Translations under genes and position numbers: made by a program
In this document: positions 35,846 to 58,027 of the stretch, piece after piece
Numbering within the stretch: the stretch's first letter is position 1
Layout: each line of letters begins with the position of its first letter
Origin: Thauera sp.
GTDB lineage: Bacteria; Pseudomonadota; Gammaproteobacteria; Burkholderiales; Rhodocyclaceae
NCBI GenBank assembly: GCA_017302295.1
Contig: JAFLDS010000001.1
Span: 124,001 to 188,000 of the forward strand
Direction: 5' to 3'
Length of the DNA: 64,000 bases
Notes under the pieces: generated by a model
Database searches by the model: none
Told to the model about the DNA's origin: nothing
Seen by the model: the letters and a program-made list of their open reading frames with translations, nothing else

Positions 35846-36376
35846 CTACGAACCATCACCGCTATCGATGACTTGCCGGACAGTCGGGTTCGCTTCAGGG
35901 AGCGCCAGTTCCGAAAAGTGCCGTCGGATATGATCCAGCTTGGGATCGATGTAGCGGCGGCAGAAGGGCCTGCTCGGGTCGGTTCGATAGTAGTTTTGGT
36001 AACGCTCGTCCGACGCTCTGAAACCTTTAAACGGGAGGACCAGGGTGTGCACCGCCTTGGCAGACGCGCCGGCGAAGCGGACGATCGCCTGTTCGGCCTC
36101 CGGCCGCTGGCTCTCTTCAAAGATGTAGATCGCGCTGCGGTACTTGCTGCGAGGCGAGCGGGCCCTGGCAGCGGAATGCGTTCTGAGATGCACCTCGGAC
36201 AGCGTCGCCAACGGAATAACCGATGGATCGAAGGTGACGATCACCCCTTCTGACCAGGTATCTGCCGGCGCGTCCGACCGGACAAAGCCCTGGTCGACCT
36301 GGGCGACGCCGCGCAACGCCTGGAACACTCCCTCTGTGCACCAATGGCATCCCCCTCCAAAGCCGGCCTTCGCCAT
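35846..36376 (-). CDS. msrA: Peptide methionine sulfoxide reductase MsrA, CHWC variant
   Basis: 176 residues from the ATG at 36376, chosen because a GGGAGG site is then 5 nt away; two more in-frame start codons lie just upstream. MsrA fold, but the active-site motif is GGGCHWCTEGVFQ instead of GCFWG, putting a second Cys three residues after the catalytic one. It reduces methionine-S-sulfoxide in proteins. The C-terminal part (YRTDPSRPFCRRYIDPKL) contains a further Cys that could resolve. Follows dps in the same operon. Confidence 0.85.
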   Translation of the reverse strand: MAKAGFGGGCHWCTEGVFQALRGVAQVDQGFVRSDAPADTWSEGVIVTFDPSVIPLATLSEVHLRTHSAARARSPRSKYRSAIYIFEESQRPEAEQAIVRFAGASAKAVHTLVLPFKGFRASDERYQNYYRTDPSRPFCRRYIDPKLDHIRRHFSELALPEANPTVRQVIDSGDGS

Positions 36377-36430
36377 CATCACCTCCCACGCCGAGGCGTG
36401 ATTCCTGACGTAGGTTTGCCCGGCAAAGCG

Positions 36431-36925
36431 CTAGCGGCTGATTTCGAAGAGGAACCACGCACGGCGCTCAGCCTCGTCCGTCCAGGCATCGATCAGGCCG
36501 GACGTCGCATTATCCTTCGCCTTGTCCGCGACGTCCTTTGCGCGGCGAAACGACTCGACCATGTGGAGATTGTCGGCGCGGAGCTCGCCCAGCATGTCCT
36601 GCGGTGTCACGAACTCAGCATCATTGTCCTTGATCGTCTGGTGGCGCGCGATATCGCCGATCGATCGAATGGTGGTGTTGCCCGTCTTTCGGGCGCGCTC
36701 GGCGATCGCATCGGTGACGGCGAGGATCTCTGCGGCCTGCTCATCAAGAAGCAGGTGATAGTCCCTGAAGTAGGGTCCGGAGACGTGCCAGTGGAAATTT
36801 TTTGTCTTCAGGTAAATCGCGTAGCTGTTCGCCAGAATGATCTTCAGAGCGTCGGCGACAGTCATCGCCGCGCATTCGTCAAGATCAGAAGGTGTCGGAA
36901 GGGCGGAGGCATTGTTGTTCGTCAT
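36431..36925 (-). CDS. dps: Dps-family DNA-protection/ferroxidase protein
   Basis: 164 residues, four-helix ferritin-like fold. The ferroxidase ligands are visible in KNFHWHVSGPYFRDYHLLLDEQ (His, His, Asp, Glu). It stores iron using peroxide and shields DNA during stress. First gene of a dps-msrA-small-gene operon. A LysR-type box lies at 37034-37048, about 110 bp upstream of the ATG, with the same geometry as in front of msrB and the Mo-oxidoreductase. Confidence 0.93.
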   Translation of the reverse strand: MTNNNASALPTPSDLDECAAMTVADALKIILANSYAIYLKTKNFHWHVSGPYFRDYHLLLDEQAAEILAVTDAIAERARKTGNTTIRSIGDIARHQTIKDNDAEFVTPQDMLGELRADNLHMVESFRRAKDVADKAKDNATSGLIDAWTDEAERRAWFLFEISR

Positions 36926-37017
36926 CGCTTAGACTTTCTCAATCTGGCTACACGGGATCCAGCACCGATTCCCCCACGGATGGCGATGTATAGAAGATGA
37001 ATTCATTGCCAGACGAA

Positions 37018-37048
37018 GTCCAATGGCCGGTGGCTATAGTTTTGATAC
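37018..37048 (-). promoter_or_regulatory. LysR-type box and -35 element upstream of dps
   Basis: CTATAGTTTTGATAC (37034-37048) is one mismatch from the CTAT-N7-ATAG palindrome. The -35-like TTGGAC (minus strand) ends at 37023, leaving exactly 10 nt between box and hexamer. The downstream -10 is poor at normal spacing, so this promoter would depend on an activator. Confidence 0.65.
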
Positions 37049-37123
37049 CTTTGAGCGACATGCGCAGTCTTGGGGGGCCGGGCGTCGCAGGCGGACCGGT
37101 CGGCCGGGACCTCCACCTGCCCG

Positions 37124-37390
37124 TCAGGGGGCCGGTCGGAAATCCAGCACGAACGCGACGACCTTTTCGGCGGACATCTCGCACGGCTTCAGCAATGTTC
37201 TATCTGATGTAACGCGATAGAGGTTGAAGCTGACAATGTCGGTCCCGGCCAACTCCCTGGCGAACAGGCTGTTGCGACGTCCGTCACCGGATCGCCGGAC
37301 AGTCACGCCGAAACGCCGGCCTTCGTAGGCGCCTTCGCTGTATCCCTCGGGAAGCTGCGCGAAGGCGGCATCGAACTCGGCATGCTCCAT
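37124..37390 (-). CDS. Conserved hypothetical protein (88 aa)
   Basis: 88 residues, MEHAEFDAAFAQLPEGYSEG to VVAFVLDFRPAP. Similar small proteins occur in sphingomonads, but I know no function. The start is placed at 37390 because the family-like part begins there; the frame is open 53 codons further with low-complexity, Arg/Pro-rich content. It follows the DUF427 gene in the same direction and likely ends the Mo-oxidoreductase operon. Confidence 0.65.
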   Translation of the reverse strand: MEHAEFDAAFAQLPEGYSEGAYEGRRFGVTVRRSGDGRRNSLFARELAGTDIVSFNLYRVTSDRTLLKPCEMSAEKVVAFVLDFRPAP

Positions 37391-37560
37391 CTCAATCCAG
37401 TCGTCTTGATTCGACAGAAGCCCAAGGGTCCGAGGCCCTCGGCGCCAGTCCGCGGAGAAGGTCCGGGGCGGAGCCCTGTAGCCGACGCGGCCTGGGATGG
37501 GCGGAAAAGCCGTCCCGCGGGCGCTTGCACATGGCGCTGAGGCCGCCACCTGTCCGCCTG

Positions 37561-37842
37561 CTACGCAACCTCCACGCCTTTCCAGAAGGCGATATGATCC
37601 CGGATGCCCTCGGCGCCTGGCGTCGGATCTGGATAGGTCCAGGCTGCGTTCACGTTGAGCGCGTCTCCCACACGCACATGGAAGTAGCGCGCGGTGCCCT
37701 TGATCGGGCAGACGGACGTGTGCGGGCTCATCTCAAGCAGGCCAAAATCGACTGCCGACGGTGGGAAGTAGTGGTTTCCCTCGACGACGACCGTCTCGTT
37801 GCTTGTGGCGATGGTGGCGTCATTCCAGATAGCTGAGACCAA
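37561..37842 (-). CDS. DUF427 domain protein
   Basis: 93 residues covering the whole DUF427 fold: ETVVVEGNHYFPPSAVDFGL, then CPIKGTARYFHV and a C-terminal IAFWKGVEV. The family has a beta-tent shape and unknown biochemical role and is common in redox-stress gene sets. It starts with TTG preceded by AGGAGA at 5 nt, which decides the start. 69 bp after the glutaredoxin gene. Confidence 0.85.
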   Translation of the reverse strand: MVSAIWNDATIATSNETVVVEGNHYFPPSAVDFGLLEMSPHTSVCPIKGTARYFHVRVGDALNVNAAWTYPDPTPGAEGIRDHIAFWKGVEVA

Positions 37843-37911
37843 CGGACTCTCCTTTCGTATTCATCAACCGGCACGGGGCTTGCGGGCTGTCTGCCCCAAG
37901 GCCGCACCCCC

Positions 37912-38184
37912 TCAGATGGCGGGCGGCGTGCGCCCCAGGAGTTTGTCGAGTTCGCCTCTGACATCGAGCTCGAAAAGCTCGTCGGAGCCACCGACATGCG
38001 TGCCGTTGATGAAGATCTGCGGCACGGTGTTTCGACCCGACGCTTCCGTCATGGCCTGCCGGTGAACCGGATCCGCCTCGATATCGAGTTCCTTCCATTG
38101 CACGCCCTTCTCCTCGAGGAGCATCTTCGCCCGGCGGCAGAACGGGCATCAGTTCGTGATGTACAGCAGCACATCAGTTGTCAT
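37912..38184 (-). pseudogene. grxC: Glutaredoxin interrupted by UGA directly before its CPFC active site
   Basis: From the ATG at 38184, with a GGAG site, the frame reads MTTDVLLYITN, then TGA at 38149-38151, then CPFCRRAKMLLEEKG and an otherwise complete Grx3-type domain ending GRTPPAI, about 90 residues in all. The stop takes the place where many glutaredoxins have Trp (TGG). Everything else is intact (TVPQIF, GGSDEL glutathione-binding parts). Restart at the ATG at 38124 would lack both active-site cysteines. It is either a fresh nonsense mutation, readthrough, or a sequencing error. UGA as selenocysteine is unlikely at this position. Confidence 0.82.
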
Positions 38185-38236
38185 ATCGCGTCTCCGACAG
38201 TTGGAAGCGGATCGCTGTCATGGCGTTGATCTACCG

Positions 38237-39502
38237 TCAGCCGCGTTCGAGGAGGGCGACTGTGCCTTGACCGCCGTCGGCGCAGATGCTGACGATTGCG
38301 CGCGATCCGGGCGGCATGGCCCAAAGTTCCTTTACCGCCTGGCTGAGGTCGCGCGCGCCTGTAGCGCCGAACGGATGACCCAGGGCGACCGAGCCTCCAT
38401 TGGGATTGACGCGGTCCCAGTCAAAATCGCCCATAGCCGCCTGGACACCGGCTGTCGCGCGCACCCACTCCCGATCGGTGATGGCCGCGACGTTCGCCAG
38501 GACCTGGGCTGCAAAGGCTTCGTGGATTTCCCAGAGTGCGATGTCGGAGAAGCTGAGTTGATGCCGCGCGAGCAGGCGCGGAATGCCATAGGAGGGCGCC
38601 ATCAGCAGGCCCTCGGTGTGGAGATCGACGGCAGAGATCTCGTAGTCGACGAGCCGCGCGTAGGGGGTGCCCGCCGGGAGTCTCGCCACACCGGCTTCGG
38701 TAGCGACCCAACACCCGGCGGCTCCATCCGTAATCGGTGAGCTGTTGCCGGCGGTCAGGGTTCCCCTCCCGCTGTCGCGATCGAAGGCGGGCTTGAGTGC
38801 GGCCAGCCGTTCGGGCGACGTATCGGCGCGCGGGTTCGCATCGCGCGCCAGCTCAGGCAGCGAAATCACGAGATCGTCGAAGAAGCCACGTTCCCAACCA
38901 GCGACTGCCCGCTGGTGGCTCTTGAGCGCCCAATCATCCTGCGCGACGCGCGAGACCCGCCAAGCCTTGGCGGTCTCCTCCATATGATCACCCATCGTCC
39001 TTCCGGTGATCCGGTTTGCCCAGCCCTTTGTGGGGAGCACGTAGTCTCGTGGAGTCAGAGACTGGAGGGCGGCAAGCGCGGCGGTCGCATCCTGCGCAAA
39101 GAGGTCGGTGAGCCGCTTCGATGCATCGGCCGTCAGGGCGATTGACGGCCGGCTCATGACTTCGGACCCGCCGACCATGGTGAGGTCGGTTCCTCCGCCC
39201 AGCATCCCTGCCGCAGCGAAGGTCGCCGTCATGCTGGTCGAGCATGCCAGGACGACGGAGAACGCCGGAACAGTCGGATTGAGCTTGGCATCAAGCCAGG
39301 TTTCGCGAGCAATATTGCTCCAGCCCAAATTCGGGATCACGGTTCCCCAGACGAGGAGATCAGGCTCCGCCTGCGCCGCCATCGCCTGCACGACAGGCAC
39401 GGACAGAGAGATGGCATCGTAGGCAGCCAACGCGCCTCCGCCGCGGCCGAAAGGCGTCCGAAGGCCAGCGGCAATGAAGACGGGTTCGGCAAAGCGGCTC
39501 AT
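38237..39502 (-). CDS. Thiolase-family acetyl-CoA acyltransferase
   Basis: 421 residues. The N-terminal nucleophile Cys lies in VVLACSTSMTATF. HEAFAAQV, GHPFGATGAR and a C-terminal CADGGQG complete the thiolase catalytic set, so it should cleave or form 3-ketoacyl-CoA. Start at the ATG at 39502 behind ttggaga. It lies between redox genes (flavin reductase upstream, glutaredoxin downstream), so its physiological link here is unclear. Part of the Mo-oxidoreductase operon by orientation and spacing. Confidence 0.9.
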   Translation of the reverse strand: MSRFAEPVFIAAGLRTPFGRGGGALAAYDAISLSVPVVQAMAAQAEPDLLVWGTVIPNLGWSNIARETWLDAKLNPTVPAFSVVLACSTSMTATFAAAGMLGGGTDLTMVGGSEVMSRPSIALTADASKRLTDLFAQDATAALAALQSLTPRDYVLPTKGWANRITGRTMGDHMEETAKAWRVSRVAQDDWALKSHQRAVAGWERGFFDDLVISLPELARDANPRADTSPERLAALKPAFDRDSGRGTLTAGNSSPITDGAAGCWVATEAGVARLPAGTPYARLVDYEISAVDLHTEGLLMAPSYGIPRLLARHQLSFSDIALWEIHEAFAAQVLANVAAITDREWVRATAGVQAAMGDFDWDRVNPNGGSVALGHPFGATGARDLSQAVKELWAMPPGSRAIVSICADGGQGTVALLERG

Positions 39503-39570
39503 GATGATCTCCAAAATTAATCCGTGGGCTGCACGTCCACGATCGGCGGGACGCGAAGTAGCTTGCGCCG

Positions 39571-40314
39571 CTAGCCGCCGTAGCGCTCGGTTTTGACAAT
39601 GGAGGGGTCCAGGCCGGCCAGCAGCGCGCCCTCGGTCGCGATGTTGACGAAACCGTTGGACCCGCAAACGAATACTTGTGTGGGCTTTCGGTGAAGCCGG
39701 GCCAGAACTTCTTGGACCATCACGCCGTCGATCCGTCGCGCAAAGTCCGATGCGCGGATCGGGTTCTCGCGCGTAATTGCCAGCGCCAAGGCGAATGCCG
39801 GATCGCTGCATTCGATGGAATGAAGCTCTTTTGAGAAGAGAACGTCTTCAGCGGTTCGTGCGGACAGGAGCAGCGCTGTCGGCACGACCTGGGCTAGTGC
39901 GCGGCGCTGCCGGATCATCGCCATCAACGGCACGAGGCCGGAGCCTGCCCCGATCAACAGCACTGGGTCTATGGCAGGTTCAGGCCATAGGAAATGGCCG
40001 CCGAGCGGACCACGAAGCTCGATTTCGTCTCCGATCGCCGCGACATCGTGGAAGAACGGCGAAACTTCGCCATCCGGCAGGCGCTCGATAGCGAGCTCGA
40101 CCGTCGGGAACGAGATTGCCGAAGACGCAATCGAGTAACTCCGCATCGCACTGTAGCCACCGGGCGCGGTCAGCCGGACATCGACGTGCTGCCCTGCGAT
40201 GTGCGCGAACGGTTTGCTCAACCGAAGGAAGAAGCTCTTGATACTCGGGGTTTGCTGGACGATTTCGTCGATCACGCATGACTGCCACGCGATTTGCGCG
40301 CCGTTTTCAGTCAT
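39571..40314 (-). CDS. FAD/NAD(P)H ferredoxin-reductase-type oxidoreductase
   Basis: 247 residues: an FAD-binding beta-barrel with MRSYSIASS and an NAD(P)H-binding domain with LIGAGSGLVPLMAMI and a C-terminal VFVCGSNGFV. No 2Fe-2S domain is attached. Its ATG overlaps the Mo-cofactor gene stop, so the two are translationally coupled. It most likely delivers electrons to or takes them from that enzyme. Confidence 0.87.
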   Translation of the reverse strand: MTENGAQIAWQSCVIDEIVQQTPSIKSFFLRLSKPFAHIAGQHVDVRLTAPGGYSAMRSYSIASSAISFPTVELAIERLPDGEVSPFFHDVAAIGDEIELRGPLGGHFLWPEPAIDPVLLIGAGSGLVPLMAMIRQRRALAQVVPTALLLSARTAEDVLFSKELHSIECSDPAFALALAITRENPIRASDFARRIDGVMVQEVLARLHRKPTQVFVCGSNGFVNIATEGALLAGLDPSIVKTERYGG

Positions 40315-40912
40315 TGGTGTATCGCTGCTCGCGCCACGGATCGCCATAGATGTGATAGCCGCGCAGCTCCCAGAAGCCCGCCTCGTCACGCGTTGTGAAT
40401 TGCAGCGCGTTCACCCATTTGGCGGACTTCCAGAAGTAAAGGTGCGGAACCAGAAGACGCGCCGGCCCTCCATGATCGCGGGGAAGCGGCTTGCCCGCAT
40501 AGTTGAGGGCGACCATCGCTTTCCCGGAGAGCAGATCCGCCAGCGGGACGTTTGTCGAGTAATTATCGTAGCAGTGCGCCAAGACGAAATCGGTGGGCCG
40601 ATCGAGCCCTGCATCTGCAAGGATGTCTTCGATGAGTACGCCCTCCCAGGCGGTATCCAGCTTGGACCAGGACGTGACGCAGTGAATGTCTCGGGTCATC
40701 TTGGTCTTCGGTAGGGCGTTGAACTCGCTCCAGTTCCACACTTTGACGGGCTTCGGACCGATCTTGACGGTGAATTTCCAATCGGAGGGCTCCACGCTCG
40801 GCGTTGGCCCGGCCGTCAGAACAGGGAAATTCTCCACGAGATGCTGACCCGGCGGTATCCGATCGGACTGGTCGCCGCCTGGACCGCGGCCTGTGAAACC
40901 TCTGGTGACCAT
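40307..40912 (-). CDS. Molybdopterin-dependent oxidoreductase (sulfite oxidase/MsrP-like fold)
   Basis: 201 residues of the oxidoreductase molybdopterin-binding domain. The Mo-ligand Cys is in DIHCVTSWSK. Further pterin-pocket residues are in RDHGGPARLLVPHLYFWKS. No Tat signal is present, unlike periplasmic MsrP, so it is probably cytoplasmic. Paired with a flavin reductase and embedded among methionine sulfoxide reductases, it may reduce sulfoxides or oxidise sulfite; the substrate is not readable. First gene of its operon, behind a LysR-box promoter. Confidence 0.85.
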   Translation of the reverse strand: MVTRGFTGRGPGGDQSDRIPPGQHLVENFPVLTAGPTPSVEPSDWKFTVKIGPKPVKVWNWSEFNALPKTKMTRDIHCVTSWSKLDTAWEGVLIEDILADAGLDRPTDFVLAHCYDNYSTNVPLADLLSGKAMVALNYAGKPLPRDHGGPARLLVPHLYFWKSAKWVNALQFTTRDEAGFWELRGYHIYGDPWREQRYTND

Positions 40913-41089
40913 AGCGAAACCCCCTTGCTTGTCACGACAGACCAGAACCTGATTCAGTTCAGAATTCTGTAAAAGATCTTTGCGCGCACAACCGCCGAAC
41001 GAGCCAATTCACTGAAAATCAGAATACCGGATTCTCTATTAGCGTAGAGAAAAGTGTTGGACCATTTTGAGTCGTGGTTATGCGTGAAG

Positions 41090-41145
41090 ACTATAGCGTC
41101 AGTCCAGTATGATTTCCCAATACCCTGTAGCTATAGTTTCGATAG
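41090..41145 (-). promoter_or_regulatory. LysR-type box and promoter of the Mo-oxidoreductase operon
   Basis: On the minus strand: perfect palindromic box CTAT-N7-ATAG (41131-41145), 10 nt, -35 TTGGGA (41115-41120), 19-nt spacer, -10 TATAGT (41090-41095). Same box-to-hexamer geometry as at dps and msrB. Fits a LysR activator binding near -65. Confidence 0.72.
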
Positions 41146-41397
41146 CTTCGAATCGGCATTGCAGGCGTATCCCCGTCAGCGGATTTCGAGCGGACGCCGT
41201 CGCTTGCCAACGTTGGTGTGAGACCGGCGGGCGAGATCGCCCCTGCCAACGCGACCGCTGAGAGGTCGACTCCTCAACCGCTTGGGCGCTTATCGCCTCC
41301 ATCCGGATGCTCACCCGCCGAACAGCAATAAACCGCTATTTTCGATAAACTTCTGAATCCGGCTCCGAGGTATGGAAACTATGTCGTACCGCTATTG

Positions 41398-41416
41398 GAT
41401 ATGTTGCGCGCATACC
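41398..41416. promoter_or_regulatory. Weak MarR-type palindrome upstream of the quinone-reductase operon
   Basis: GATATGTTGCGCGCATACC shares 14 of 19 positions with the TATATGCTTCGCGCATAGA site in front of marR at 58.5 kb. It lies about 100 bp before the ATG at 41518. Confidence 0.4.
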
Positions 41417-41517
41417 TTCATAGTCTGACACGCGAAATCTTTAAATCCCGAGTATATTTCGGAAGAAATTTCGATCTGATCGATAAGACTTCAGGATACA
41501 GCAAGCTGGAGACACCG

Positions 41518-42531
41518 ATGAAAGCCGTTGGTTACAAGGTTCCGGGACCCATCGCCGAGGACGCCTCTCTGGTCGACATTGATCTGCCTCGGCCTGTCGC
41601 TGAAGGAGGCGATATCCTGGTTGAGGTGAAGGCTGTCTCGGTCAACCCGGTCGACTACAAAATCCGCAGCAGCACGCCGCCCGCTGATGGCGATTGGAAA
41701 GTGCTGGGATGGGATGCGGCCGGGATCGTGCAAGAGGTCGGCCCCGACGTGACGCAGTTCGCGGTAGGCGACGAGGTCTATTATGCCGGATCGCTCATAA
41801 GGCCTGGCACCAATGCGGAGTTCCATCTCGTCGACGCCCGGATCGTCGGTCGTAAACCCGCGTCGCTCGACTGGGCGGAAGCGGCGGCGCTGCCACTCAC
41901 GACGTTGACGGCCTGGGAAGCCATGTTCGATCGCCTGGACGTGACGAAGCCCGTTCCCGGGGCGGCGGCGGCGATCCTCATCATCGGTGGTGCGGGTGGG
42001 GTCGGGTCGATCGCCATCCAGATCGCTCGACAGCGCACGGATCTCATCGTCATCTCCACCGCCTCTCGGCCGGAAACCCAGGAGTGGGTTAAAGGGCTTG
42101 GGGCTCATCATGTCATCGACCACTCTCGGCCGCTCGCGCCACAGATTGCCGAGCTCAACATCGGCGCTCCCGCTTTCGTGTTCTCGACCACGCATACCGA
42201 GCAGCATGCATCCGACATCGCCGAACTGATCGCCCCGCAAGGACGGTTCGGATTCATCGACGATCCCAAGGCGCTCGACGTCATGCTGTTCAAGCGCAAG
42301 GCAGTGTCGATCCACCACGAGCTGATGTTCACACGGTCGCTCTACGGCACGCCCGACATGGATGAGCAGGGCAAGATCCTCAATTCGCTGGCGGTGCTGG
42401 TGGACGACGGCAAAATTCGCACGACGCTAACCGAAAAATTGTCGCCAATTAATGCCGCCAATCTGAAGACGGTGCACGCACTGATCGAAAGTGGCGCGGC
42501 AAGAGGCAAGATTGTCCTCGAAGGCTTCTGA
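41518..42531 (+). CDS. Zinc-binding-alcohol-dehydrogenase-family quinone reductase (MDR)
   Basis: 337 residues. GroES-like N-domain (ILVEVKAVSVNPVDYKIR, VLGWDAAGIVQEVG) and nucleotide-binding domain with IIGGAGGVGSIAIQIAR. No zinc-ligand cysteine cluster is seen, as in NADPH:quinone reductases. It probably detoxifies quinones or enals. Start at 41518 (MKAVGYKVPG), after ctggaga; the frame is open 41 codons upstream. First gene of a plus-strand operon with the GlcG, DUF1330, thioredoxin-like, DM13 and MFS genes. Confidence 0.9.
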   Translation: MKAVGYKVPGPIAEDASLVDIDLPRPVAEGGDILVEVKAVSVNPVDYKIRSSTPPADGDWKVLGWDAAGIVQEVGPDVTQFAVGDEVYYAGSLIRPGTNAEFHLVDARIVGRKPASLDWAEAAALPLTTLTAWEAMFDRLDVTKPVPGAAAAILIIGGAGGVGSIAIQIARQRTDLIVISTASRPETQEWVKGLGAHHVIDHSRPLAPQIAELNIGAPAFVFSTTHTEQHASDIAELIAPQGRFGFIDDPKALDVMLFKRKAVSIHHELMFTRSLYGTPDMDEQGKILNSLAVLVDDGKIRTTLTEKLSPINAANLKTVHALIESGAARGKIVLEGF

Positions 42532-42604
42532 TGACTGCCACCGCCGAACGTCTTTTCTAACCTCAAGAACGCCGGACGGATTACGCCACGGCGAAGGAAA
42601 TTTC

Positions 42605-43036
42605 ATGACGAAATCCATTGCCACCGCCTCGATCAACCGCGAAACCGCCGTCGCCCTCATCGACGCGGCGATCGCCGCGGCACGCACAATCGGCATCCCG
42701 GCTGCGGTCGCCGTCGTCGACGCCACCGGTAACCTGGGCGCGTTCGAGCGCACTGATGACGCGCCGTTTCTCACCGTCGATGTTGCCATCGACAAGGCTT
42801 GGAGTTCCGCCTCGTTTGGGTACCCCACCCATGTCTGGAACGACTATGTTTCGAACGATCCAAAAGTGGCGCCGCTGGCCTATCGCCCCCGGATGGTCGC
42901 TGTCGGCGGAGGCTATCCGATCCTGGAAGACGGGAAGTTGATCGGCGGGATCGGCATCTCCGGAGGCAACTATCAGCAGGATCAGGATGCGTGCGTCGAG
43001 GCACTCACGAAAATCGGGTTCGAGCTGCCAGCCTGA
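42605..43036 (+). CDS. GlcG/HbpS family heme-binding-type protein
   Basis: 143 residues: full GlcG/HbpS fold (ETAVALIDAAIAAARTIGIP, AVVDATGNLGAFERTDDAP, GGIGISGGN). HbpS relatives bind heme and sense redox stress; most members are uncharacterised. Cytoplasmic here, with no signal peptide. Start at 42605 after gaagga. 73 bp after the quinone reductase. Confidence 0.87.
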   Translation: MTKSIATASINRETAVALIDAAIAAARTIGIPAAVAVVDATGNLGAFERTDDAPFLTVDVAIDKAWSSASFGYPTHVWNDYVSNDPKVAPLAYRPRMVAVGGGYPILEDGKLIGGIGISGGNYQQDQDACVEALTKIGFELPA

Positions 43037-43083
43037 CGACTTTAAGGCCATCGCCAGCGGCGGTGGCCTGCAGATGCGACCTT

Positions 43084-43389
43084 ATGAAAGACTTTAAGAT
43101 GGAAGCGTTCGTCGTCTTCACCCGCGAAGAAACCACCGATCCGGAAGAACTCGCAACCTATTCTGCAGGCGTCGGCCCATCGTTCGATGGCCACGACGTA
43201 ACCTTTCTCGCCGCTTATGGCACGATGGAGCATTTGGAGGGGCCGCCCGTCGAAGGGGCCGTAATTTTGCGGTTCCCGACGATGCAGGCCGCCCGTGATT
43301 GGTATCATAGCCCCGCCTACCAAACCATCGCTGCGCACCGTTTTGCCGGTTCCCGCTATCGCGCCTTTGTCATTGAGGGGCGGCGGTGA
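43084..43389 (+). CDS. DUF1330 family protein
   Basis: 101 residues. Dimeric alpha/beta-barrel of DUF1330: VEGAVILRFPTMQAARDWYH followed by SPAYQTIAAHRF is the diagnostic stretch. Function unknown. The ATG at 43084 is used, but the ATG at 43099 with gaaag in front is equally possible. Third gene of the operon. Confidence 0.85.
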   Translation: MKDFKMEAFVVFTREETTDPEELATYSAGVGPSFDGHDVTFLAAYGTMEHLEGPPVEGAVILRFPTMQAARDWYHSPAYQTIAAHRFAGSRYRAFVIEGRR

Positions 43390-43540
43390 CACACCGACGG
43401 AAGAACGGCGGGGCTGGCCACGAGGTATCGGTCGGCGAACTCGCATCCTACAACCTGTAGGGGATCAAGGCGGTGAGGTTCGCGTGCCATCGCCACAAGC
43501 GACCACTCATCGGACTTCTGCATCGGAATTGGAGGATCAG

Positions 43541-44011
43541 ATGAGCGTCGACGAACGACAAGCCCCCGAGCTGCGGGTGCAGAGATGGATTGGCGCGGAT
43601 GGAGAAAGCATCGCGCCGCTCAAGCTGTCGGATCTCGGCACCGGCCCGAAAGTCCTCTTCGCCTTCCAGCACTGGTGCCGTGGCTGCCATTTGCATGGAT
43701 TTCCGACGCTACAAAGGTTGCATGGTGCATTGAGCGCCAAGGGCGTGGGCTTCGCGGTGATCCAGACCGTCTTCGAAGGAGCGGATGAGAACACCTTCGA
43801 GAAGCTGCGCGTGAACCAGCTCAAGTATGCGCTTCCTGTCGCGTTCGGTCAGGACGAGCCACCTGCCGGCGCGACGCTTCCCACCTTCATGGAGGACTAC
43901 CGCACGCGGGGAACGCCCTGGTTCTCCGTGATGGACGCTGGCGGCCGCATCGTATTCTCGGACTTCCATCTCGACGCCGATCAGCTCGTGAAGGGACTGG
44001 AGCTGGTGTAA
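43541..44011 (+). CDS. Thioredoxin-like (AhpC/TlpA-type) redox protein
   Basis: 156 residues, thioredoxin fold with a CxxC motif in HWCRGCHLHGFP and the cis-Pro region GATLPTFMEDY. It lacks a signal peptide or anchor, so it is cytoplasmic, and could reduce disulfides or act as a peroxiredoxin-like partner of the Msr enzymes. The start at 43541 has a perfect GGAGG 6 nt upstream. Precedes the DM13 gene by 3 nt. Confidence 0.85.
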   Translation: MSVDERQAPELRVQRWIGADGESIAPLKLSDLGTGPKVLFAFQHWCRGCHLHGFPTLQRLHGALSAKGVGFAVIQTVFEGADENTFEKLRVNQLKYALPVAFGQDEPPAGATLPTFMEDYRTRGTPWFSVMDAGGRIVFSDFHLDADQLVKGLELV

Positions 44012-44014
44012 CCG

Positions 44015-44527
44015 ATGCGGCGCTGGGTCATCCTGATTGCCACCCATCTCGCGATGCTCGCCATGGGCTTCGCGGGCGGTGTCTACACGCTGCCGATCCT
44101 GACCGCCCCCCAGGCCCCGGACGCGGCGGCCTTGCGGACCATCTCAGCCGAGACGCTCTACGCAGGGCGTCTGGCCCGCGATCTCAAAGGCAGCGACCTG
44201 CTTCACTGGGGGGAAGGCGAGATCCGGGTCTCGCGCGACCGTATCGCCCATATCGGGCGCCTCGCCCCTGGTCCCGACTACAAGCTCTACCTCGCACCAC
44301 GTTTCGTCGACACGAAGGAGGCCTTTCTCCTAATCAAGGACAGATCAGTCCGCGTGGGCGATGTGAAGACGTTCAACGGCTTCATCGTCGAGGTGCCTGC
44401 CGGCATCGATGTCCGTGACTACAACACGGTCGTCATCTGGTGCGAAGCATTCGACCAGTTCATCAGTGCGGCAGAGTATCAACCCTCAAGTCAGGCCCGA
44501 GAACGAGCCCGGCGATGGATACCATGA
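44015..44527 (+). CDS. Membrane-anchored DM13 domain protein
   Basis: 170 residues. One N-terminal helix (VILIATHLAMLAMGFAGGVY) is followed by a DM13 domain with GEGEIRV, YKLYLAPRF and the diagnostic VVIWCEAFDQFISAAEY. DM13 domains are proposed electron-transfer modules with a redox-active Cys. It faces the periplasm. Overlaps the MFS start by 4 nt (ATGA). Confidence 0.85.
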   Translation: MRRWVILIATHLAMLAMGFAGGVYTLPILTAPQAPDAAALRTISAETLYAGRLARDLKGSDLLHWGEGEIRVSRDRIAHIGRLAPGPDYKLYLAPRFVDTKEAFLLIKDRSVRVGDVKTFNGFIVEVPAGIDVRDYNTVVIWCEAFDQFISAAEYQPSSQARERARRWIP

Positions 44528-45786
44528 GGTCGGCGGGCAAGCGCGGCCTCGTTCTCGCGCCGGTGGCGGCGCTGCTGCTGAGCGTCGCCGCTCTGCTGCT
44601 GGGCAATGGCCTGCTGAGCACGCTCCTGATCGTGAGAGCCGGCCATGAGGGGTTCTCGACCGGCGCGATCAGCGCGATGATGTCCTTCTATTTCGCGGGT
44701 TTCACGATCGGCGCGCTCGTGTTGCCACCGATCATCGTCTCCGTGGGACATGTCAGAACCTTCGCCGGCTTCGCGGCCATTGCCTCGATGACCGCCCTTC
44801 TCCATGTGGCGTTCGTGGAGCCGATCGCCTGGATGCCGCTTCGCCTGATTACCGGCTTCGCCTACGCGGGCATGATCCTCGCAACGGAGAGTTGGCTCAA
44901 CGCCCACGCATTGCCATCCACACGCGGGCAGCTCCTGTCGATATTCGGAGTTGTCTCTATGGGCTCATGGGCAATCGGGCAGGCGTTACTCAACATCGCA
45001 CCGCCCGCCGACGTGACATTGTTCCTCATCGTGTCGCTGCTGATATCAGCGGCGGTGGTTCCGATCACCTTGCTGCCCAGTCATCCGCCGGCCCAGGTGG
45101 AACAGGAATGGGTCGCGTTCAGGGACCTCGTCCTCGTATCACCTCTCGCTGCGGCTGGCGCTTTCCTGGCCGGCCTGGCTATCGGTGGTTTCTGGGGCAT
45201 GGGCGCGAACTTCGCCCAGAGCATCGGCCTCGATGTGGGCGGTATCTCCGCCTTCATGGCTGCGGTTCTTGGTGGAACGCTCGCCTTCCATTGGCCACTC
45301 GGTTGGCTTTCGGATCGAGTGCCCCGGAATCTTGTCATCGCCGGTGCGGCGCTGGCGTCCGCAGCGTCTGCCATCGGCGTAGCGTTGGCGGTGGAAGCGC
45401 CTCTGCCGCTGCTCCTTGCGGCAGGTGCGCTGTTCGGCGGCTTTGGCATCCCGATTTATTCGTTGTGTCTCGCCGTCGCAAACGACGATCTTCCGGCCGG
45501 TCGGCTACTCGGCACCGCGCGCGGGCTTCTGTTGCTCAACGGGATCGGGACAGCCGCTGGCCCCCTAATAGGAGCAGCTGCAATGAATATCGTCGGCCCT
45601 GGCGGCCTGTTCCTTTATGCGGCGGCGTTGCTCACGCTCCTGGCAGTGCTGGCCATCGCCCGCAGGCAGCCGAGGCGCGCCAACCAGGCCAAGGCGGCCC
45701 CCCGTTCTCCGAGCACGCCGATGATAACCGGATCTCTCGATACGATGATATGCATGGAGAAGCGGGCGCAGGGCGTGCGGGATTAG
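44524..45786 (+). CDS. MFS transporter (YcaD-like)
   Basis: 420 residues, about twelve membrane helices. The cytoplasmic loop WLSDRVPRN and the early STGAISAMMSFYFAGFTIGA resemble the YcaD-type branch of the major facilitator family. Substrate unknown; an efflux role would fit a stress operon. Start by overlap with the DM13 stop. Last gene of the plus-strand operon; converges with ridA-like. Confidence 0.87.
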   Translation: MRSAGKRGLVLAPVAALLLSVAALLLGNGLLSTLLIVRAGHEGFSTGAISAMMSFYFAGFTIGALVLPPIIVSVGHVRTFAGFAAIASMTALLHVAFVEPIAWMPLRLITGFAYAGMILATESWLNAHALPSTRGQLLSIFGVVSMGSWAIGQALLNIAPPADVTLFLIVSLLISAAVVPITLLPSHPPAQVEQEWVAFRDLVLVSPLAAAGAFLAGLAIGGFWGMGANFAQSIGLDVGGISAFMAAVLGGTLAFHWPLGWLSDRVPRNLVIAGAALASAASAIGVALAVEAPLPLLLAAGALFGGFGIPIYSLCLAVANDDLPAGRLLGTARGLLLLNGIGTAAGPLIGAAAMNIVGPGGLFLYAAALLTLLAVLAIARRQPRRANQAKAAPRSPSTPMITGSLDTMICMEKRAQGVRD

Positions 45787-45816
45787 CGCGGCACGGCGCC
45801 TGCACGAACCGCGGGG

Positions 45817-46218
45817 TCAGGCGATGATAGCTGTTACGCGAATTTCGATACGCATGGTTGGAAGCCCCAGCGCTTCGATTCCCAACTGCGTCCAGATTGG
45901 AGCGCGGTCGGGCATGTAGTGGCGATACAGCTTGGCCATTGTTTCGTTGATCACGGGAGGGAATCCACCGACGTGATAGGAATTGACGTGGACCACATGC
46001 GGCCAGCGTGCTCCGGCGGTCGCGAGCGTCCGTTCCACGTTCTTGAACGCCTGCTCGATCTCTTCCTCAATCGACTCCGGAATGACGAGATCGTCGTTCC
46101 ATCCGCCCTGTCCGGAGATCTCCACGCGGTCACCAATGCGCATTGCCTGAGAATAATGAAGCGCGTCATGCAGGCGCGTCCCGTATCCGGGGGTGATGAA
46201 GAATGAAGGTGTTGTCAT
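45817..46218 (-). CDS. RidA-family (YjgF) protein
   Basis: 133 residues of the trimeric RidA fold: HYSQAMRIGDRVEISGQGG, FKNVERTLATAG and RAPIWTQLGIEALG. The catalytic Arg of true RidA is not obvious at the C-terminal RIEIRVTA. Members remove reactive enamines or act as chlorine-activated chaperones. Start at 46218. Last gene in the long msrB operon. Confidence 0.85.
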   Translation of the reverse strand: MTTPSFFITPGYGTRLHDALHYSQAMRIGDRVEISGQGGWNDDLVIPESIEEEIEQAFKNVERTLATAGARWPHVVHVNSYHVGGFPPVINETMAKLYRHYMPDRAPIWTQLGIEALGLPTMRIEIRVTAIIA

Positions 46219-46324
46219 GAGTTTGCCTTTGATGAGCCAGGTCAACGCGGCTGCAAGTGACCGTATGCATGCAGAAAGAGATGCAGGGCGTTCGGCACTA
46301 GCGCGCCGGCTGCGGTGGAGGGCT

Positions 46325-46774
46325 TTATTCCACGTCTTCTACGGTGAGGTCCCGGCCGTTGAACTGCACGGTCTCCCCGGCTCGGGCACCCTCGATCGCT
46401 TCGAAGATCGGCGCCATCGTGGAAATGCCCATGAGCTCACGCCCCTGACAGGTAAACTTGCTCGTTGACACCGCGATCACAAAGTGGCGGCCGGACAGCT
46501 TGACGACAGCGCCTTCGTTGACGGCCAACTTGGGGCCGAAATCGATCGTCCTGAGCTTTTCGAGTTTATTGGCGTAGTCATGGAGCGTGTCATCGAGCGC
46601 TTCAGCGAAGTCGCTCGCGACCTCGGCCTGAGCTAGTTCGTCGTTTTCGATCGGTTCGCTCCGATCGAGCCGAGCGGTAGAGACATAGTCCAGGTAGTTT
46701 TCGCGAGCGCTGTGCAACGCTGCTGTCTCCAGCAAGAGCATAGTTTCTCGTATGTGGTCCTTGTTCCAGTCCAT
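46325..46774 (-). CDS. Hypothetical protein with GreA/GreB C-terminal-like domain
   Basis: 149 residues. The N-terminal half is helical and acidic; the C-terminal half (VNEGAVVKLSGRHFVIAV, ISTMAPIFEAIEGARAGETV) resembles the FKBP-like domain of GreA/GreB and Rnk. It may bind RNA polymerase. The helical half is too short for a full Gre coiled coil, so cleavage stimulation is doubtful. The ATG at 46774 follows a perfect AGGAGG site. Confidence 0.65.
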   Translation of the reverse strand: MDWNKDHIRETMLLLETAALHSARENYLDYVSTARLDRSEPIENDELAQAEVASDFAEALDDTLHDYANKLEKLRTIDFGPKLAVNEGAVVKLSGRHFVIAVSTSKFTCQGRELMGISTMAPIFEAIEGARAGETVQFNGRDLTVEDVE

Positions 46775-46861
46775 AATCACCTCCTAATTTTCGATGTTCT
46801 TAAAGTTCAGCCTGCAGATGTGTGGGCCAGGAAGGCCAGCCTTTCCGGCTAAGCGACACCG

Positions 46862-47434
46862 CTATTCGTCGCTGATGACGTCTTCGCCCTGGTATGGAAC
46901 CCTGATCAGCCGAGGATCTCGAATGATGCTCGTGACGAGCCAGACATATTCCTGCTCGGCGGTATCGAAGCCGAGGATGCTGAAGGATTGGCCGAAAGGG
47001 CATGGCGGGAAGTCTGGAAAGCCCTCGCGCAGAACGTAACGCTCGGGATCGCTGTGAAACTCGCTCTTGTAGACTTTCCGTAGTCCGTGCTTGCTCGGCG
47101 CGTCCTGGTCACCTGCCGGTGCTGTTTCCCGATGCGCCACAAGGCGCTCGGACAAGTCGCGGGGGCAGATTTCGTGGAACACGTCGAAGGCGTCGATCAA
47201 CAGGCCTTTATGCTCTGTCGCCGGATCGGTGATCGCGTAGATGTTGGAGGCATCTTCGCCGTCGTCCCCGCTCTCGAGGCGCAACGCCGCATCGACGCGA
47301 ATGCTGCATGCATCGAGGGTTGACCCTAGTTCGAGATCGACGAGATTGCCGTCCTTGACGCGGTATTCGCGGTCATAGCCTTTGGCGATGAATGACTGGA
47401 CTGCTTCTAGAACGTCGGTCACCTGGGAGGTCAT
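46862..47434 (-). CDS. Conserved hypothetical protein (190 aa)
   Basis: 190 residues from the ATG at 47434. The N-terminal part (VLEAVQSFIAKGYDREYRVK, then VDAALRLES and AITDPATEHKGLLIDAFDV) looks like small proteins sometimes labelled phosphoribosylpyrophosphate synthetase, a doubtful name with no synthetase motif here. The C-terminal half is unfamiliar. Downstream of corA in the msrB operon. Function unknown. Confidence 0.7.
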   Translation of the reverse strand: MTSQVTDVLEAVQSFIAKGYDREYRVKDGNLVDLELGSTLDACSIRVDAALRLESGDDGEDASNIYAITDPATEHKGLLIDAFDVFHEICPRDLSERLVAHRETAPAGDQDAPSKHGLRKVYKSEFHSDPERYVLREGFPDFPPCPFGQSFSILGFDTAEQEYVWLVTSIIRDPRLIRVPYQGEDVISDE

Positions 47435-47525
47435 GGAAGCACCTTCATCTTGAACTGGATTGGACACGCTCGCGCACAAAGCGCGCTGTGACTCGGCGGA
47501 CGGAGAAGCTCGCGAAGTGCGTTAC

Positions 47526-48494
47526 TCATAGCCACTTGGCCTTCTTGAAGCGCATGAATAGGAGAAGGCAGAACACCGCTATCACTCCGAGCACGACGAA
47601 GTAGCCATATGGCGTGTCCAGTTCCGGCATGTGCTTGAAGTTCATGCCATATATTCCGGCGATCGCCGTCGGGACCGCCAAGATCGCCGCCCAGGCCGCG
47701 AGCTGGCGAGTGACCACACCGATCCTTTGCGCTTCCAGAAGGCTGCTGGCCTCGAAGACCGTGGACAGGACAAGCAGGAGGCCGTCGACCATGGACTGCA
47801 CGCGGTGGACATGGTCCGCGACGTCGTGGAAATATGGTGTCATTTCGGCGCTGATGCAGGGAAAGTGGCCGCGAACGAGCTTTCGCACCAGCTCGGCCAT
47901 AGCCCCGAGCGTGCGCTGGAACCGCGTGAGTTCGGACCTTAGTTCGAAGATTCGCGCCACCTCTTCTGGCCCGAGGAAATCGTGCAGCGACCGTCGCTCC
48001 ATCGCCAGGACGTCGTCCTCGATCATTTCGAAGATGGGCAGATACTGGTCGACCACTCGGTGCAAGATCGCGTGCAGCACATAGTCGACACCCTTGCCGA
48101 ACTGCGTCGGCGATGCCTCGAGTTGCTCCCGAAGTTTGCCCAGCGCTCCGGCATTGCCGTGCCGCACGGTGATAAGGTGATTGTGACCGGTGAAGATCGC
48201 CATCTTGCCGTAGCTGATCCGGTCGCCGACCAGCTCGGCGGTCTGGGCGACGACGTACAACTCATCGTTGTAGACCTCGAGCTTGGGCGGGCACAGCGGG
48301 TGCATGGCGTTGTCGATCGCCAAAGGATGGAGGTTATACGTCGTCTGGATCGCGCTGAGTTCGTCTGCGGTGGGCTCGCTAAGCGCGATCCAGCAGAAGC
48401 CCGAGCGATTCTCGTTTAGTTCGACGTGCTCATCGAGCCTGATTTCACGGACTCGCTTACCTTCGTTGTAATAATATGCGGCGATAATGGTCAT
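47526..48494 (-). CDS. corA: CorA-family magnesium/cobalt transporter
   Basis: 322 residues. A long cytoplasmic funnel is followed by two C-terminal membrane helices with the signature YGMNF between them. CorA moves Mg2+ (and Co2+/Ni2+) down its gradient as a pentamer. The loop PELDTPYGY follows. The start at 48494 (MTIIAAYYYNEGKRV) overlaps the glutathione transferase stop by 4 nt, so it is translationally coupled. Confidence 0.92.
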   Translation of the reverse strand: MTIIAAYYYNEGKRVREIRLDEHVELNENRSGFCWIALSEPTADELSAIQTTYNLHPLAIDNAMHPLCPPKLEVYNDELYVVAQTAELVGDRISYGKMAIFTGHNHLITVRHGNAGALGKLREQLEASPTQFGKGVDYVLHAILHRVVDQYLPIFEMIEDDVLAMERRSLHDFLGPEEVARIFELRSELTRFQRTLGAMAELVRKLVRGHFPCISAEMTPYFHDVADHVHRVQSMVDGLLLVLSTVFEASSLLEAQRIGVVTRQLAAWAAILAVPTAIAGIYGMNFKHMPELDTPYGYFVVLGVIAVFCLLLFMRFKKAKWL

Positions 48495-49195
48495 GCAGGC
48501 CTCGCAGGAATTCGCAGGCCACGCTGTACAGCCGGTCGCGCCAGCCCGCGTTCGAGCCATGCCTGCACGTTCGAATAGCTGCTTAGGCCGAGGATGTCGC
48601 CCGCTGCGTAGAATTCGACCAGCGCATTCACCCAGCCAAACGTCGCAATGTCCGCGATCGAGTAATCATCGACAATCCATTCACGGCCCTCCAGCCGGTG
48701 ATCCAGGACCCCGAGAAGACGCCTGGATTCATCAACAAAGCGCTGCCGAGGTCGCTTGTCCTCATAGTCCTTGCCGGCAAATCGCAGGAAAAAGCCTAGC
48801 TGTCCGAAGGTCGGCCCAACGCCCGACACCTGAAAGAACACCCAGGCCAGAGTCTCGTACCGCTGGGCGGGTGTTGTTGAGATGAGCTGCCCCGTCTTGT
48901 CGGCCAGATAGATGAGGATCGCACCGGTTTCCCATATGCCAATGGGCTGGCCGTCAGGGCCAGCCGGATCGATGATCGCGGGTATGCGGCCGTTGGGATT
49001 CAACGACACGAACGCTGGATCCTTCGACTCGTTGTTCGAGATGTCGACGAAGTGGGGCTCATACGGCAGGCCAGTCTCCTCCAGCATCATCGAGACCTTG
49101 ACGCCGTTGGGCGTGGGGGCCGCGTATAGTTGCAAGCGATCCGGATAAGATGCTGGCCAGCGCTGCGTGATGGGAAAGGAGGAGAGGTCTGTCAT
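48491..49195 (-). CDS. Glutathione S-transferase (YghU/Ure2p-like)
   Basis: 234 residues: thioredoxin-like N-domain (LYAAPTPNGVKVSMMLEETG, LNPNGRIPAIIDP, WETGAILIYLADK) and an all-helical C-domain. The TPNG motif is typical of YghU-type enzymes, which bind glutathione disulfide and reduce peroxides. Start at 49195. Between msrA and corA in the same operon. Confidence 0.93.
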   Translation of the reverse strand: MTDLSSFPITQRWPASYPDRLQLYAAPTPNGVKVSMMLEETGLPYEPHFVDISNNESKDPAFVSLNPNGRIPAIIDPAGPDGQPIGIWETGAILIYLADKTGQLISTTPAQRYETLAWVFFQVSGVGPTFGQLGFFLRFAGKDYEDKRPRQRFVDESRRLLGVLDHRLEGREWIVDDYSIADIATFGWVNALVEFYAAGDILGLSSYSNVQAWLERGLARPAVQRGLRIPARPA

Positions 49196-49327
49196 ATCTG
49201 GATCCTGGCACTGCGACGGCGGCTGAATGGAATGATCTGCTTCAAGGCCGGGTTCGACGACCGCGTCGATTGACGCGGTCGTCGGAGGTTGCGAACCGGA
49301 TCGGCGCGGCACTAACGGCAGCGAAGC

Positions 49328-49867
49328 CTATTCCGCTGCAGCCCCGGCCGCAGGGCTCACATCGCCGGCCTCATGCCGCTTTGGAAGAACCCAGTCGGGA
49401 CGGACGAAGTGGCAGGTGTAGCCGCCCGGCCGCTTCTCCAGATAATCCTGGTGATCGGGCTCGGCCTCCCAGAACTCGCCGACCGGCTGGACCTCGGTCA
49501 CCACTTTGCCATCCCACAGCCCCGAGGCATCCACATCGGCGATCGTATCCTCGGCGACGCGCTTCTGCTCCTCGTCGACATAATAGATGCCCGACCGGTA
49601 GGAGAGCCCACGATCATTGCCCTGGCGGTTCAGCGTCGTCGGATCGTGGATCTGGAAGAAGAATTCCAGGATGTGCCGGTAGCTCGTCACTGTCGGGTCG
49701 AAGACAATCTCGATCCCCTCGGCATGCGTGCCGTGATTACGATACGTGGCGTTCGGAATATCGCCGCCCGTGTAACCCACACGGGTCGAGATGATGCCGG
49801 GCCGCTTGCGGATCAGATCCTGCATGCCCCAGAAACATCCTCCTGCGAGAACAGCGCGCTGATGCAT
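49328..49867 (-). CDS. msrA: Peptide methionine-S-sulfoxide reductase MsrA
   Basis: 179 residues with the classical [11 protein letters not shown] active site, GYTGG and YHxG-like [11 protein letters not shown] regions, and FFQIHDPTT. It reduces Met-(S)-sulfoxide using thioredoxin. A second Cys in YTCHFVRP can resolve. One base after the msrB stop, so msrB-msrA form an R/S-sulfoxide repair pair. Confidence 0.95.
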
Positions 49868-49868
49868 G

Positions 49869-50312
49869 TTAAGCCTCCTCTACTTGATCGAGATATTCAC
49901 CGTATCCCTCGGACTCCATCTCGTCGCGCGGGATGAAGCGAAGGGACGCAGAGTTGATGCAGTAGCGCAGACCGCCGCGGTCGGAAGGACCGTCCGGGAA
50001 AACGTGGCCCAGATGGCTGTCGGCGTGTACCGACCTGACCTCCGTCCGGACCATGCCGTGTGCACTGTCCCGCACCTCGTTCACGTTTGCCGGAACGATC
50101 GGCTTGGTGAAGCTGGGCCAGCCAGTACCCGAATCGAACTTGTCCGTTGAAGCGAACAGCGGCTCTCCCGACACTATGTCGACGTAGATGCCAGGCTCCT
50201 TGTTGTCGTTGTGCTCACCCGTGAAGGGCCTTTCGGTCCCCGAATCCTGGGTAATCCGGCGTTGCTCGGGGGTCAGGCGGTCAACTGCTGCCTGTGACTT
50301 CTCAAACTTCAT
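49869..50312 (-). CDS. msrB: Peptide methionine-R-sulfoxide reductase MsrB
   Basis: 147 residues. The catalytic Cys is in [11 protein letters not shown] and the GTGWPSF substrate pocket is present. The zinc-binding CxxC pairs of many MsrB proteins are replaced ([11 protein letters not shown]), so this is the zinc-free type. Start at 50312, four codons inside the open frame. First gene of the long operon msrB-msrA-gst-corA-hyp-hyp-ridA, behind a LysR-box promoter. Confidence 0.95.
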
Positions 50313-50379
50313 GATAGTCTCCAATAATTAATCTAGAGAGCTCGACACACTGTCATTTATCTTTGCAGTCATTGCGCCG

Positions 50380-50434
50380 ACTATAGCAGTGCGCCCCAGA
50401 TTTATCCAATACGCTGCGCGTATAGTTTCCATAG
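50380..50434 (-). promoter_or_regulatory. LysR-type box and promoter of the msrB operon
   Basis: On the minus strand: box (GTATAGTTTCCATAG on plus, 50420-50434), 10 nt, -35 TTGGAT (50404-50409), 18-nt spacer, -10 TATAGT (50380-50385), about 70 bp before msrB. The lysR gene next door is the obvious candidate regulator. Confidence 0.75.
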
Positions 50435-50458
50435 CGCCGAAGCTCTTCACGTCGTGAT

Positions 50459-51334: not shown

Positions 51335-51402
51335 AGTCCTTTGGCCCACGCGCCTGACTGATACCTCTTCCGTGAGACCGCCTTTGGAAAGCAGGTCGCA
51401 GA

Positions 51403-55352: not shown

Positions 55353-55361
55353 TGCCACATC

Positions 55362-58001: not shown

Positions 58002-58027
58002 TATTTCAAGCCTGCCTGATCATATCG

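Follow-up and report, generated by a model that had tools for sequence, protein, structure and literature searches.

Do several promoters that carry the same box within one element answer to one regulator, and is it the regulator encoded beside them? This question is raised by a 64,000-nucleotide stretch of Thauera sp. DNA (assembly GCA_017302295.1, contig JAFLDS010000001.1, positions 124,001 to 188,000), referred to here as the window. A first-pass annotation had noticed a LysR-type box before three operons of an element in this window and proposed that a LysR protein encoded next to one of them controls all three as a stress regulon. We followed the boxes through the window, its own genome, and relatives. 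From the results it is likely that a self-contained LysR regulon travels on the element; the resident LysR would bind the boxes and activate about 20 genes for oxidant repair.

Four promoters share one composite motif

The three boxes of the first-pass annotation all lie on the minus strand with TTGG exactly 10 nucleotides beyond each, and their coordinates were right. They had been described as CTAT-N7-ATAG, which is exact only at 41131 to 41145; the other two carry one mismatch. A fourth box had been overlooked. It was found by scanning for box, gap, and TTGG, has the same 10-nucleotide gap, and precedes the divergent adh operon. Bare CTAT-N7-ATAG was too weak to serve as the sole motif: at up to one mismatch it has 10 matches in the window versus 4.81 expected, and 1 of 100 shuffles reaches 10. 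Therefore, we replaced it with a longer composite motif, (C/G)TATnRAAWCTATR-N10-ATTGG. The sites and the gene for the proposed regulator are as follows.

37034 to 37048, minus strand: box 1 (GTATCAAAACTATAG), dps; TTGGAC at 37018 to 37023, −10 element CATCTT at 36994 to 36999; composite motif exact
41131 to 41145, minus strand: box 2 (CTATCGAAACTATAG), molybdopterin-oxidoreductase (moco) operon; TTGGGA at 41115 to 41120, −10 element TATAGT at 41090 to 41095
41370 to 41384, plus strand: box 3 (GTATGGAAACTATGT), adh operon; TTGGAT at 41395 to 41400, −10 element CATAGT at 41419 to 41424
50420 to 50434, minus strand: box 4 (CTATGGAAACTATAC), msrB; TTGGAT at 50404 to 50409, −10 element TATAGT at 50380 to 50385
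50459 to 51334, minus strand: LysR-type regulator, proposed binder of the four boxes (PF00126, E 1e-17; PF03466, E 5.1e-25)

The window has four exact matches to the composite motif. Across 200 dinucleotide-shuffled versions of it, neither the motif nor its box half alone turned up. Across the genome (4,110,904 bases in 53 contigs), the same four were the sole sites with up to one mismatch, and a reversed-pattern control gave none. With a slightly different pattern, the same four came back at zero or one mismatch, along with a fifth at three mismatches, and its reversed control gave three sites.

The box is a palindrome around its eighth base, with the ideal form CTATRGAWTCYATAG. T-N11-A is the signature of sites for LysR-type regulators. 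T2-N11-A14 is present in boxes 1, 2, and 4. In box 3, position 14 is G instead, which is also the case in 38 of 138 distinct sites. Box 4 places such a palindromic site beside the regulator's own gene, between lysR and msrB. As the first-pass annotation had it, lysR adjoins a target, upstream of msrB and in the same direction. Its two perfect TATAGT elements were also confirmed, before the moco operon and msrB. The spacers are 18 nucleotides for dps, adh, and msrB and 19 for moco. The proposed box position near −65 was about 10 nucleotides too far upstream, because the box centers lie about 54 to 55 nucleotides before the predicted starts.

The motif occurs in genomes that have the LysR

Among the window's own genome and 40 relatives, the motif was found in both genomes with a full-length LysR near 100% identity and in none of the other 39, whose LysR proteins reach at most about 39% local identity. 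We also searched 298 genomes of one family, that of Sphingopyxis witflariensis (G049, locus L056; G and L labels denote our genomes and loci). Exact motifs occurred in three, which are the three with a LysR at least 79% identical, and in none of the remaining 295. Four of the 295 have LysR paralogues 37 to 42% identical, without an exact motif; in one of them (G113, 42%), a box with one mismatch precedes msrB. An msrB homologue is present in 252 of the 298 genomes, so a missing motif does not mean a missing gene. Searched whole, 28 of 30 LysR-bearing genomes had one to nine sites with up to one mismatch, and the reversed control gave none in all 30. This co-occurrence (2/2 versus 0/39 and 3/3 versus 0/295), together with the conservation described below, supports the LysR regulon that the first-pass annotation had proposed, as far as genome comparison can.

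One linked block moving between genomes could account for much of this co-occurrence. Phyllobacterium sophorae (G056) is a case free of this caveat. Its single LysR (E 1e-30) is on contig C11, and a second, unlinked msrBA with an exact box is on contig C33, where MsrB is 83% identical to that of the window.

Separately, one contig of a Devosia metagenome-assembled genome (G054:C78, loci L151 to L153) has eight sites with at most one mismatch; it also carries two LysR genes, which share 80% and 67% identity with that of the window. In Thauera phenylacetica (L019), the LysR frame is interrupted by a stop, and the G024 match contains one TAA although a 373-amino-acid open frame is given (entry on L019 and L089). 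In L010, on a contig binned as Acidobacteriota, the LysR is 100% identical, which is possibly a binning error or a recent transfer.

The box is kept before the same genes in relatives

A collection of species genomes was scanned with an alignment of three LysR sequences, and the best 80 of 112 relatives (LysR 47 to 100% identical) were kept. At a gap of 10, 92 sequences had 130, 38, 17, and 6 sites with zero, one, two, and three mismatches; these sequences include duplicates, near-identical loci, and copies of the window's own sites. Gaps of 5 to 9 and 11 to 15 gave at most two exact sites each and up to 26 with three mismatches.

We then worked with loci picked by their LysR and not by the motif, 41 representatives at 97% identity plus L166. 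We tested the 300 bases before each placed gene for the motif, allowing mismatches at up to 2 of its 18 scored positions. A site preceded msrB in 40 of 43 cases (43 of 43 within three mismatches), moco in 19 of 21, adh in 6 of 8, dps in 3 of 5, and HbpS in 1 of 9. The other 27 gene families, some with only one to four genes, scored zero in this test, including fdr (0/19), CorA (0/26), msrA (0/43), lysR (0/42), and marR (0/26). Reversed upstream sequence gave zero throughout. Boxes missing from related elements that keep lysR would have spoken against the first-pass annotation, and this test did not refute it. The box before msrB is also kept in Sinorhizobium and Ensifer, in which the LysR is 59 to 61% identical, lysR, msrB, and msrA are adjacent, and DNA identity is 66 to 75%.

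Positions outside the search pattern are conserved as well. A is found at position 32 in 109 of the 138 distinct sites, and the A and T of the −10 element, at box positions 51 and 52, are found in 107 and 105. Selection of the 138 sites relied in part on the motif, and chance may account for some of them. Pfam searches on selected first open reading frames after them gave further targets in relatives: hydOsmC, thiolase, thioredoxin-like, DUF2218, cytochrome P460, Sulf_transp, 6-phosphogluconate-dehydrogenase-like, ABM, metallo-beta-lactamase fold, DUF427, methyladenine-glycosylase-like, amino-acid binding, transglutaminase-like, and LuxR-type. The upstream test misses the hydOsmC sites in L056 and L062 (hydOsmC, 0/10) and the thiolase site in L164, for hydOsmC probably because gene starts were filtered. 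No LysR box was found at hydOsmC in the window. The box precedes cytochrome P460 genes, a target absent from the window, in L063, L067, and L126.

The rhizobial variant of the box has T at position 9. LysR residues 23 to 25 and 37 sort by clade apart from one case each of R37 with T, Q37 with A, and RRS with A, and no single residue was proven to explain T9.

Several observations weigh against the proposed regulon. Two LysR-bearing genomes (G061 and G062) have no site with up to one mismatch; their lysR-msrB gap has only a two-mismatch and a three-mismatch version. The three paralogue loci other than G113, 9.5 to 10.5 kb each, have no msrB and no site within two mismatches. The survey of 298 genomes scored at most eight LysR candidates per genome, and a weaker LysR could escape it. 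In the upstream test, msrB of L053, L065, and L085 matched only at three mismatches, and moco of L044 and L065, dps of L044 and L048, and adh of L024 and L025 fell beyond two. With the gap set wrongly to 8, msrB still scored 7 of 43 at three mismatches, and the remaining families scored zero. Some boxed genes (LuxR-type, transglutaminase-like, and the amino-acid binding protein) are unlike oxidant repair. Finally, the nearest solved structure by profile is OxyR (4x6g, E 3.1e-26), and that alignment puts Cys198 of the window LysR one residue before a position that reads D.

Predicted action of LysR and the genes behind the boxes

The LysR would bind the 15-bp T-N11-A palindrome centered about 54 nucleotides upstream of the four predicted starts. 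The invariant ATTGG, which lies 10 nucleotides downstream of the box and overlaps a weak −35 element, may provide a further contact. From there LysR would activate, rather than repress, promoters that we propose are poor when unaided because their spacers are 18 to 19 nucleotides. Four blocks would be controlled: dps-msrA; the molybdopterin oxidoreductase set; adh-HbpS-DUF1330-thioredoxin-like-DM13-MFS; and msrB-msrA-GST-CorA-RidA. Their predicted role is methionine-sulfoxide repair, thiol repair, and iron storage. The first-pass annotation was right that such genes lie behind the boxes, and its figure of about 15 rises to about 20. Putative operon membership follows gene order and strand.

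36431 to 36925, minus strand: dps, ferritin-like (PF00210), first gene after box 1
35846 to 36382, minus strand: MsrA-like open reading frame 3' of dps, named from sequence and neighbors, presumably co-transcribed
37561 to 40912, minus strand: whole box 2 set, five genes by order and strand
40307 to 40912, minus strand: molybdopterin oxidoreductase, box 2 set
39571 to 40317, minus strand: ferredoxin reductase, box 2 set
38237 to 39505, minus strand: thiolase, box 2 set
37912 to 38124, minus strand: glutaredoxin-like open reading frame, box 2 set, name taken from a plasmid copy
37561 to 37842, minus strand: DUF427, box 2 set
41518 to 45786, plus strand: whole box 3 set, same order in plasmid copies; includes HbpS-like, DUF1330, and MFS genes, all plus strand
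41518 to 42531, plus strand: zinc-binding alcohol dehydrogenase (ADH), box 3 set
43529 to 44011, plus strand: thioredoxin-like with CxxC, box 3 set; the L042 relative matches AhpC-TSA at E 1.5e-4, below the cut-off
44015 to 44527, plus strand: DM13, box 3 set
45817 to 50324, minus strand: whole box 4 set (msrB, msrA, GST, CorA, two unnamed proteins, RidA)
49869 to 50324, minus strand: msrB, box 4 set
49328 to 49867, minus strand: msrA, box 4 set
45817 to 46245, minus strand: RidA, box 4 set

Conserved cysteines suggest a thiol oxidant as the signal

Cys144, Cys198, and Cys238 are invariant in all 41 LysR representatives, and Cys170 is present in 39. An alignment of 21 sequences that includes the 37 to 42% paralogues shows the first three in every sequence, so the three cysteines are not specific to box-bearing loci. 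The window LysR has no invariant internal methionine (the best, Met215, is in 34 of 41 representatives), and a HypT-type methionine switch was rejected because conserved methionines are lacking. The peroxidatic and resolving cysteines of OxyR are Cys199 and Cys208. The D in 4x6g is presumably the peroxidatic Cys199 mutated to Asp. An idea formed by eye, that Cys198 sits exactly at this position, was dropped after the profile alignment. A resolving cysteine at 207 to 208 is absent in 21 of 21 aligned sequences, and an OxyR-type cysteine pair is therefore not seen. A thiol switch is plausible, though not OxyR's in detail.

We consider a thiol oxidant, sensed via the conserved cysteines, the most likely signal. 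Reactive chlorine species are the leading candidate, with about an even chance; the invariant cysteines and a nearby DUF417 gene of the RcrB/RclC type hint at such an oxidant. E. coli RcrB is a DUF417 protein homologous to RclC, according to the available text of PMC9600549. In the available part of a review of hypochlorite responses, RidA is named as a chaperone, and OsmC-like proteins, Dps, and yedY are among the induced genes (PMC7464077). An inducer other than chlorine (peroxide, quinones, or another electrophile), acting on the same regulon, stands somewhat short of an even chance. The GST, ADH/quinone-reductase-type, and HbpS genes suit electrophiles or heme, and the nearest structure is an OxyR. 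The same review text gives dps as an OxyR target, but the RidA, OsmC-like, Dps, yedY, and RcrB parallels would point back to chlorine. The assemblies behind eight of the 80 loci (L016, L023, L024, L025, L034, L054, L060, and L082) have names made up of time or co, spades, and CONCOCT or DASTOOL. This naming scheme appears in the accessible text of a drinking-water study (PMC8567270), and the eight would seem to be assemblies of that study.

A second palindrome may link lysR to a MarR-type regulator

A different palindrome, TATGCG-NNN-CGCATA, lies upstream of lysR.

51405 to 51419: palindrome copy 1, one mismatch, upstream of lysR
51445 to 51459: palindrome copy 2, two mismatches, 40 bp from copy 1
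54813 to 55388, minus strand: MarR-type regulator (longest open reading frame), candidate for the palindrome; degenerate copy with two mismatches at 55366 to 55380
55865 to 56353, minus strand: DUF417 protein (RcrB/RclC family); exact palindrome upstream at 56428 to 56442

The DUF417 protein is annotated likewise in plasmids pFBAOT6 and pKAM339_1. Another copy lies at 58574 to 58588, and window copies lie at the lysR, MarR, DUF417, and Sulf_transp genes. A second MarR homologue, at about 58000 to 58560 on the minus strand, is 45.5% identical to the first and has a one-mismatch palindrome at its start.

Within 50 to 115 nucleotides before lysR, 25 of the 41 representatives have at least one copy with up to one mismatch, and 18 have two, 40 to 41 bp apart. 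The palindrome is lacking in 11 rhizobial representatives, L084, L085, and L166, and there is none at that place in L036 (a short contig), L051, and L067. Relatives also carry it where MarR-type genes begin, at their 5' end, and in the vicinity of DUF417 and Sulf_transp genes. Of the 25 palindrome-bearing representatives, 22 (all but L023, L053, and L054) have a MarR homologue in the locus, compared with none of the 11 rhizobial ones. With up to three mismatches, the palindrome is not enriched in the window (33 found versus 27 expected). Because of this, and because the pair before lysR has one and two mismatches, the case for a MarR operator depends on conservation.

The palindrome is probably a MarR operator, and the simplest reading is that the MarR protein would control lysR, itself, and the DUF417 gene. 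Taken together, there might be a mobile two-tier circuit for chlorine-type oxidants, in which MarR, through the palindrome, would act on lysR, itself, and DUF417, and a thiol-switch LysR on four or more operons with one rigid layout. We hold this only tentatively and consider it doubtful as a whole; that 3 of the 25 operator-bearing representatives have no MarR match counts slightly against it. If it is true, then bacteria from hospitals, sewage, and disinfected water would share one oxidant-defense circuit. Its layout would stay functional in Alpha-, Beta-, and Gammaproteobacteria through the joint transfer of regulator and boxes.

Could a different regulator from the element, a MarR or TetR protein, act at the boxes, with LysR as a bystander? 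Genes of both types are in the element, and MarR homologues are in most sphingomonad-type loci. However, MarR genes carry a different palindrome at their own starts, the T-N11-A box is of the LysR kind, and it stays next to LysR in 11 of 11 rhizobial representatives without a MarR match in the locus. This makes a bystander LysR quite unlikely. It is very unlikely that box and TTGG form a promoter for an alternative sigma factor rather than an operator. The distances among box, TTGG, and −10 element are rigid, and Sinorhizobium msrA1 to -3 and msrB1 and -2 are listed in the RpoHI regulon in the available text of a review (PMC8226930). However, the −10 elements (TATAGT and CATAGT) are sigma-70-like, the box is palindromic, and the 295 genomes of one family without the LysR have no exact site, although nearly all would have general sigma factors. 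It is extremely unlikely that the four promoters are alike only because their DNA was recently duplicated or has a common origin. The Enterobacteriaceae copies are all near-identical DNA, but the window promoters differ outside the box, ATTGG, and −10 element, the genes behind them are unrelated, and loci with a LysR 42 to 60% identical retain the same blocks.

The LysR-msrB stretch is widespread on plasmids

Window positions 50300 to 51500, the lysR-msrB stretch, match 239 plasmid records; in 167 the identity is at least 99%. Counted by the first word of the record name, the 239 include Citrobacter (65), Sinorhizobium (51), Klebsiella (40), and Enterobacter (29). The same stretch is in 5 of 5,426 E. 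coli genomes, always plasmid-borne. For positions 36400 to 51500, 23 of the best 30 rows of 403 records begin at window position 41036, a start that retains boxes 2 to 4 and loses moco. Plasmid pFBAOT6, with three sites, is an example; pKAM339_1 retains all four boxes.

Plasmid matches also break repeatedly at about 50331 to 50338, which lies between box 4 and msrB. Among 60 plasmid records listed of the 239, 15 match only from query base 32 on; other records match only bases 1 to 36 or 3 to 39, with msrB. The break fits a published piece, msrB-msrA-yfcG-corA, described as passenger DNA beside blaAFM/blaNDM, next to ISCR/IS91 elements including ISCR27 (PMC9984417 and PMC12210851). Its gene order equals part of the box 4 set, but in the available text of these papers no lysR is listed beside it and regulation is not discussed. 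We predict that plasmid copies cut between the box and msrB have lost LysR control.

Discussion

In listings from the open PMC library and in passages of selected papers, neither this LysR regulon nor its boxes turned up, although the msrB-msrA-yfcG-corA fragment is already in print. A cluster of annotated stress genes can now be treated as one testable regulon with a named regulator and an unusually strict arrangement of its operators, for which the kind of signal is predicted. Such a regulon would explain how an oxidant response of many operons stays regulated after transfer between proteobacterial classes.

Known systems resemble it in part. LsrB of Sinorhizobium meliloti is a LysR-type antioxidant regulator, and that rhizobium also has the present LysR, on pSymA. 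The LsrB targets named in the available text are gshA and lrp3-lpsCDE; the comparison with the present LysR is by targets, not by sequence. In the RcrR-RcrB and RclR-RclABC systems of E. coli, a DUF417 membrane protein is under a redox regulator (PMC9600549, available text). However, RcrR and RclR are not LysR proteins, and the DUF417 gene of the window adjoins the MarR-type palindrome, not a LysR box.

HypT (YjiE) is a LysR-type protein that responds to hypochlorite, and MsrA and MsrB are part of its biology. Its sensing methionines are Met123, Met206, and Met230, as given in the available part of PMC7464077. HypT is activated through these three methionines; in the window LysR, by conservation among the 41 representatives, the invariant residues of this kind are cysteines. 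No HypT entry was named among 20 PDB matches at E 1e-6, some of which carry general titles. OxyR is the closest parallel by structure profile and is likewise a LysR-type regulator of oxidant defense that includes dps. It differs in that full-length similarity is modest, and the window LysR has its Cys198 one residue early and no cysteine nine residues on. It differs also in scale: the regulon here would be small and strictly local, with a rigid box-TTGG layout.

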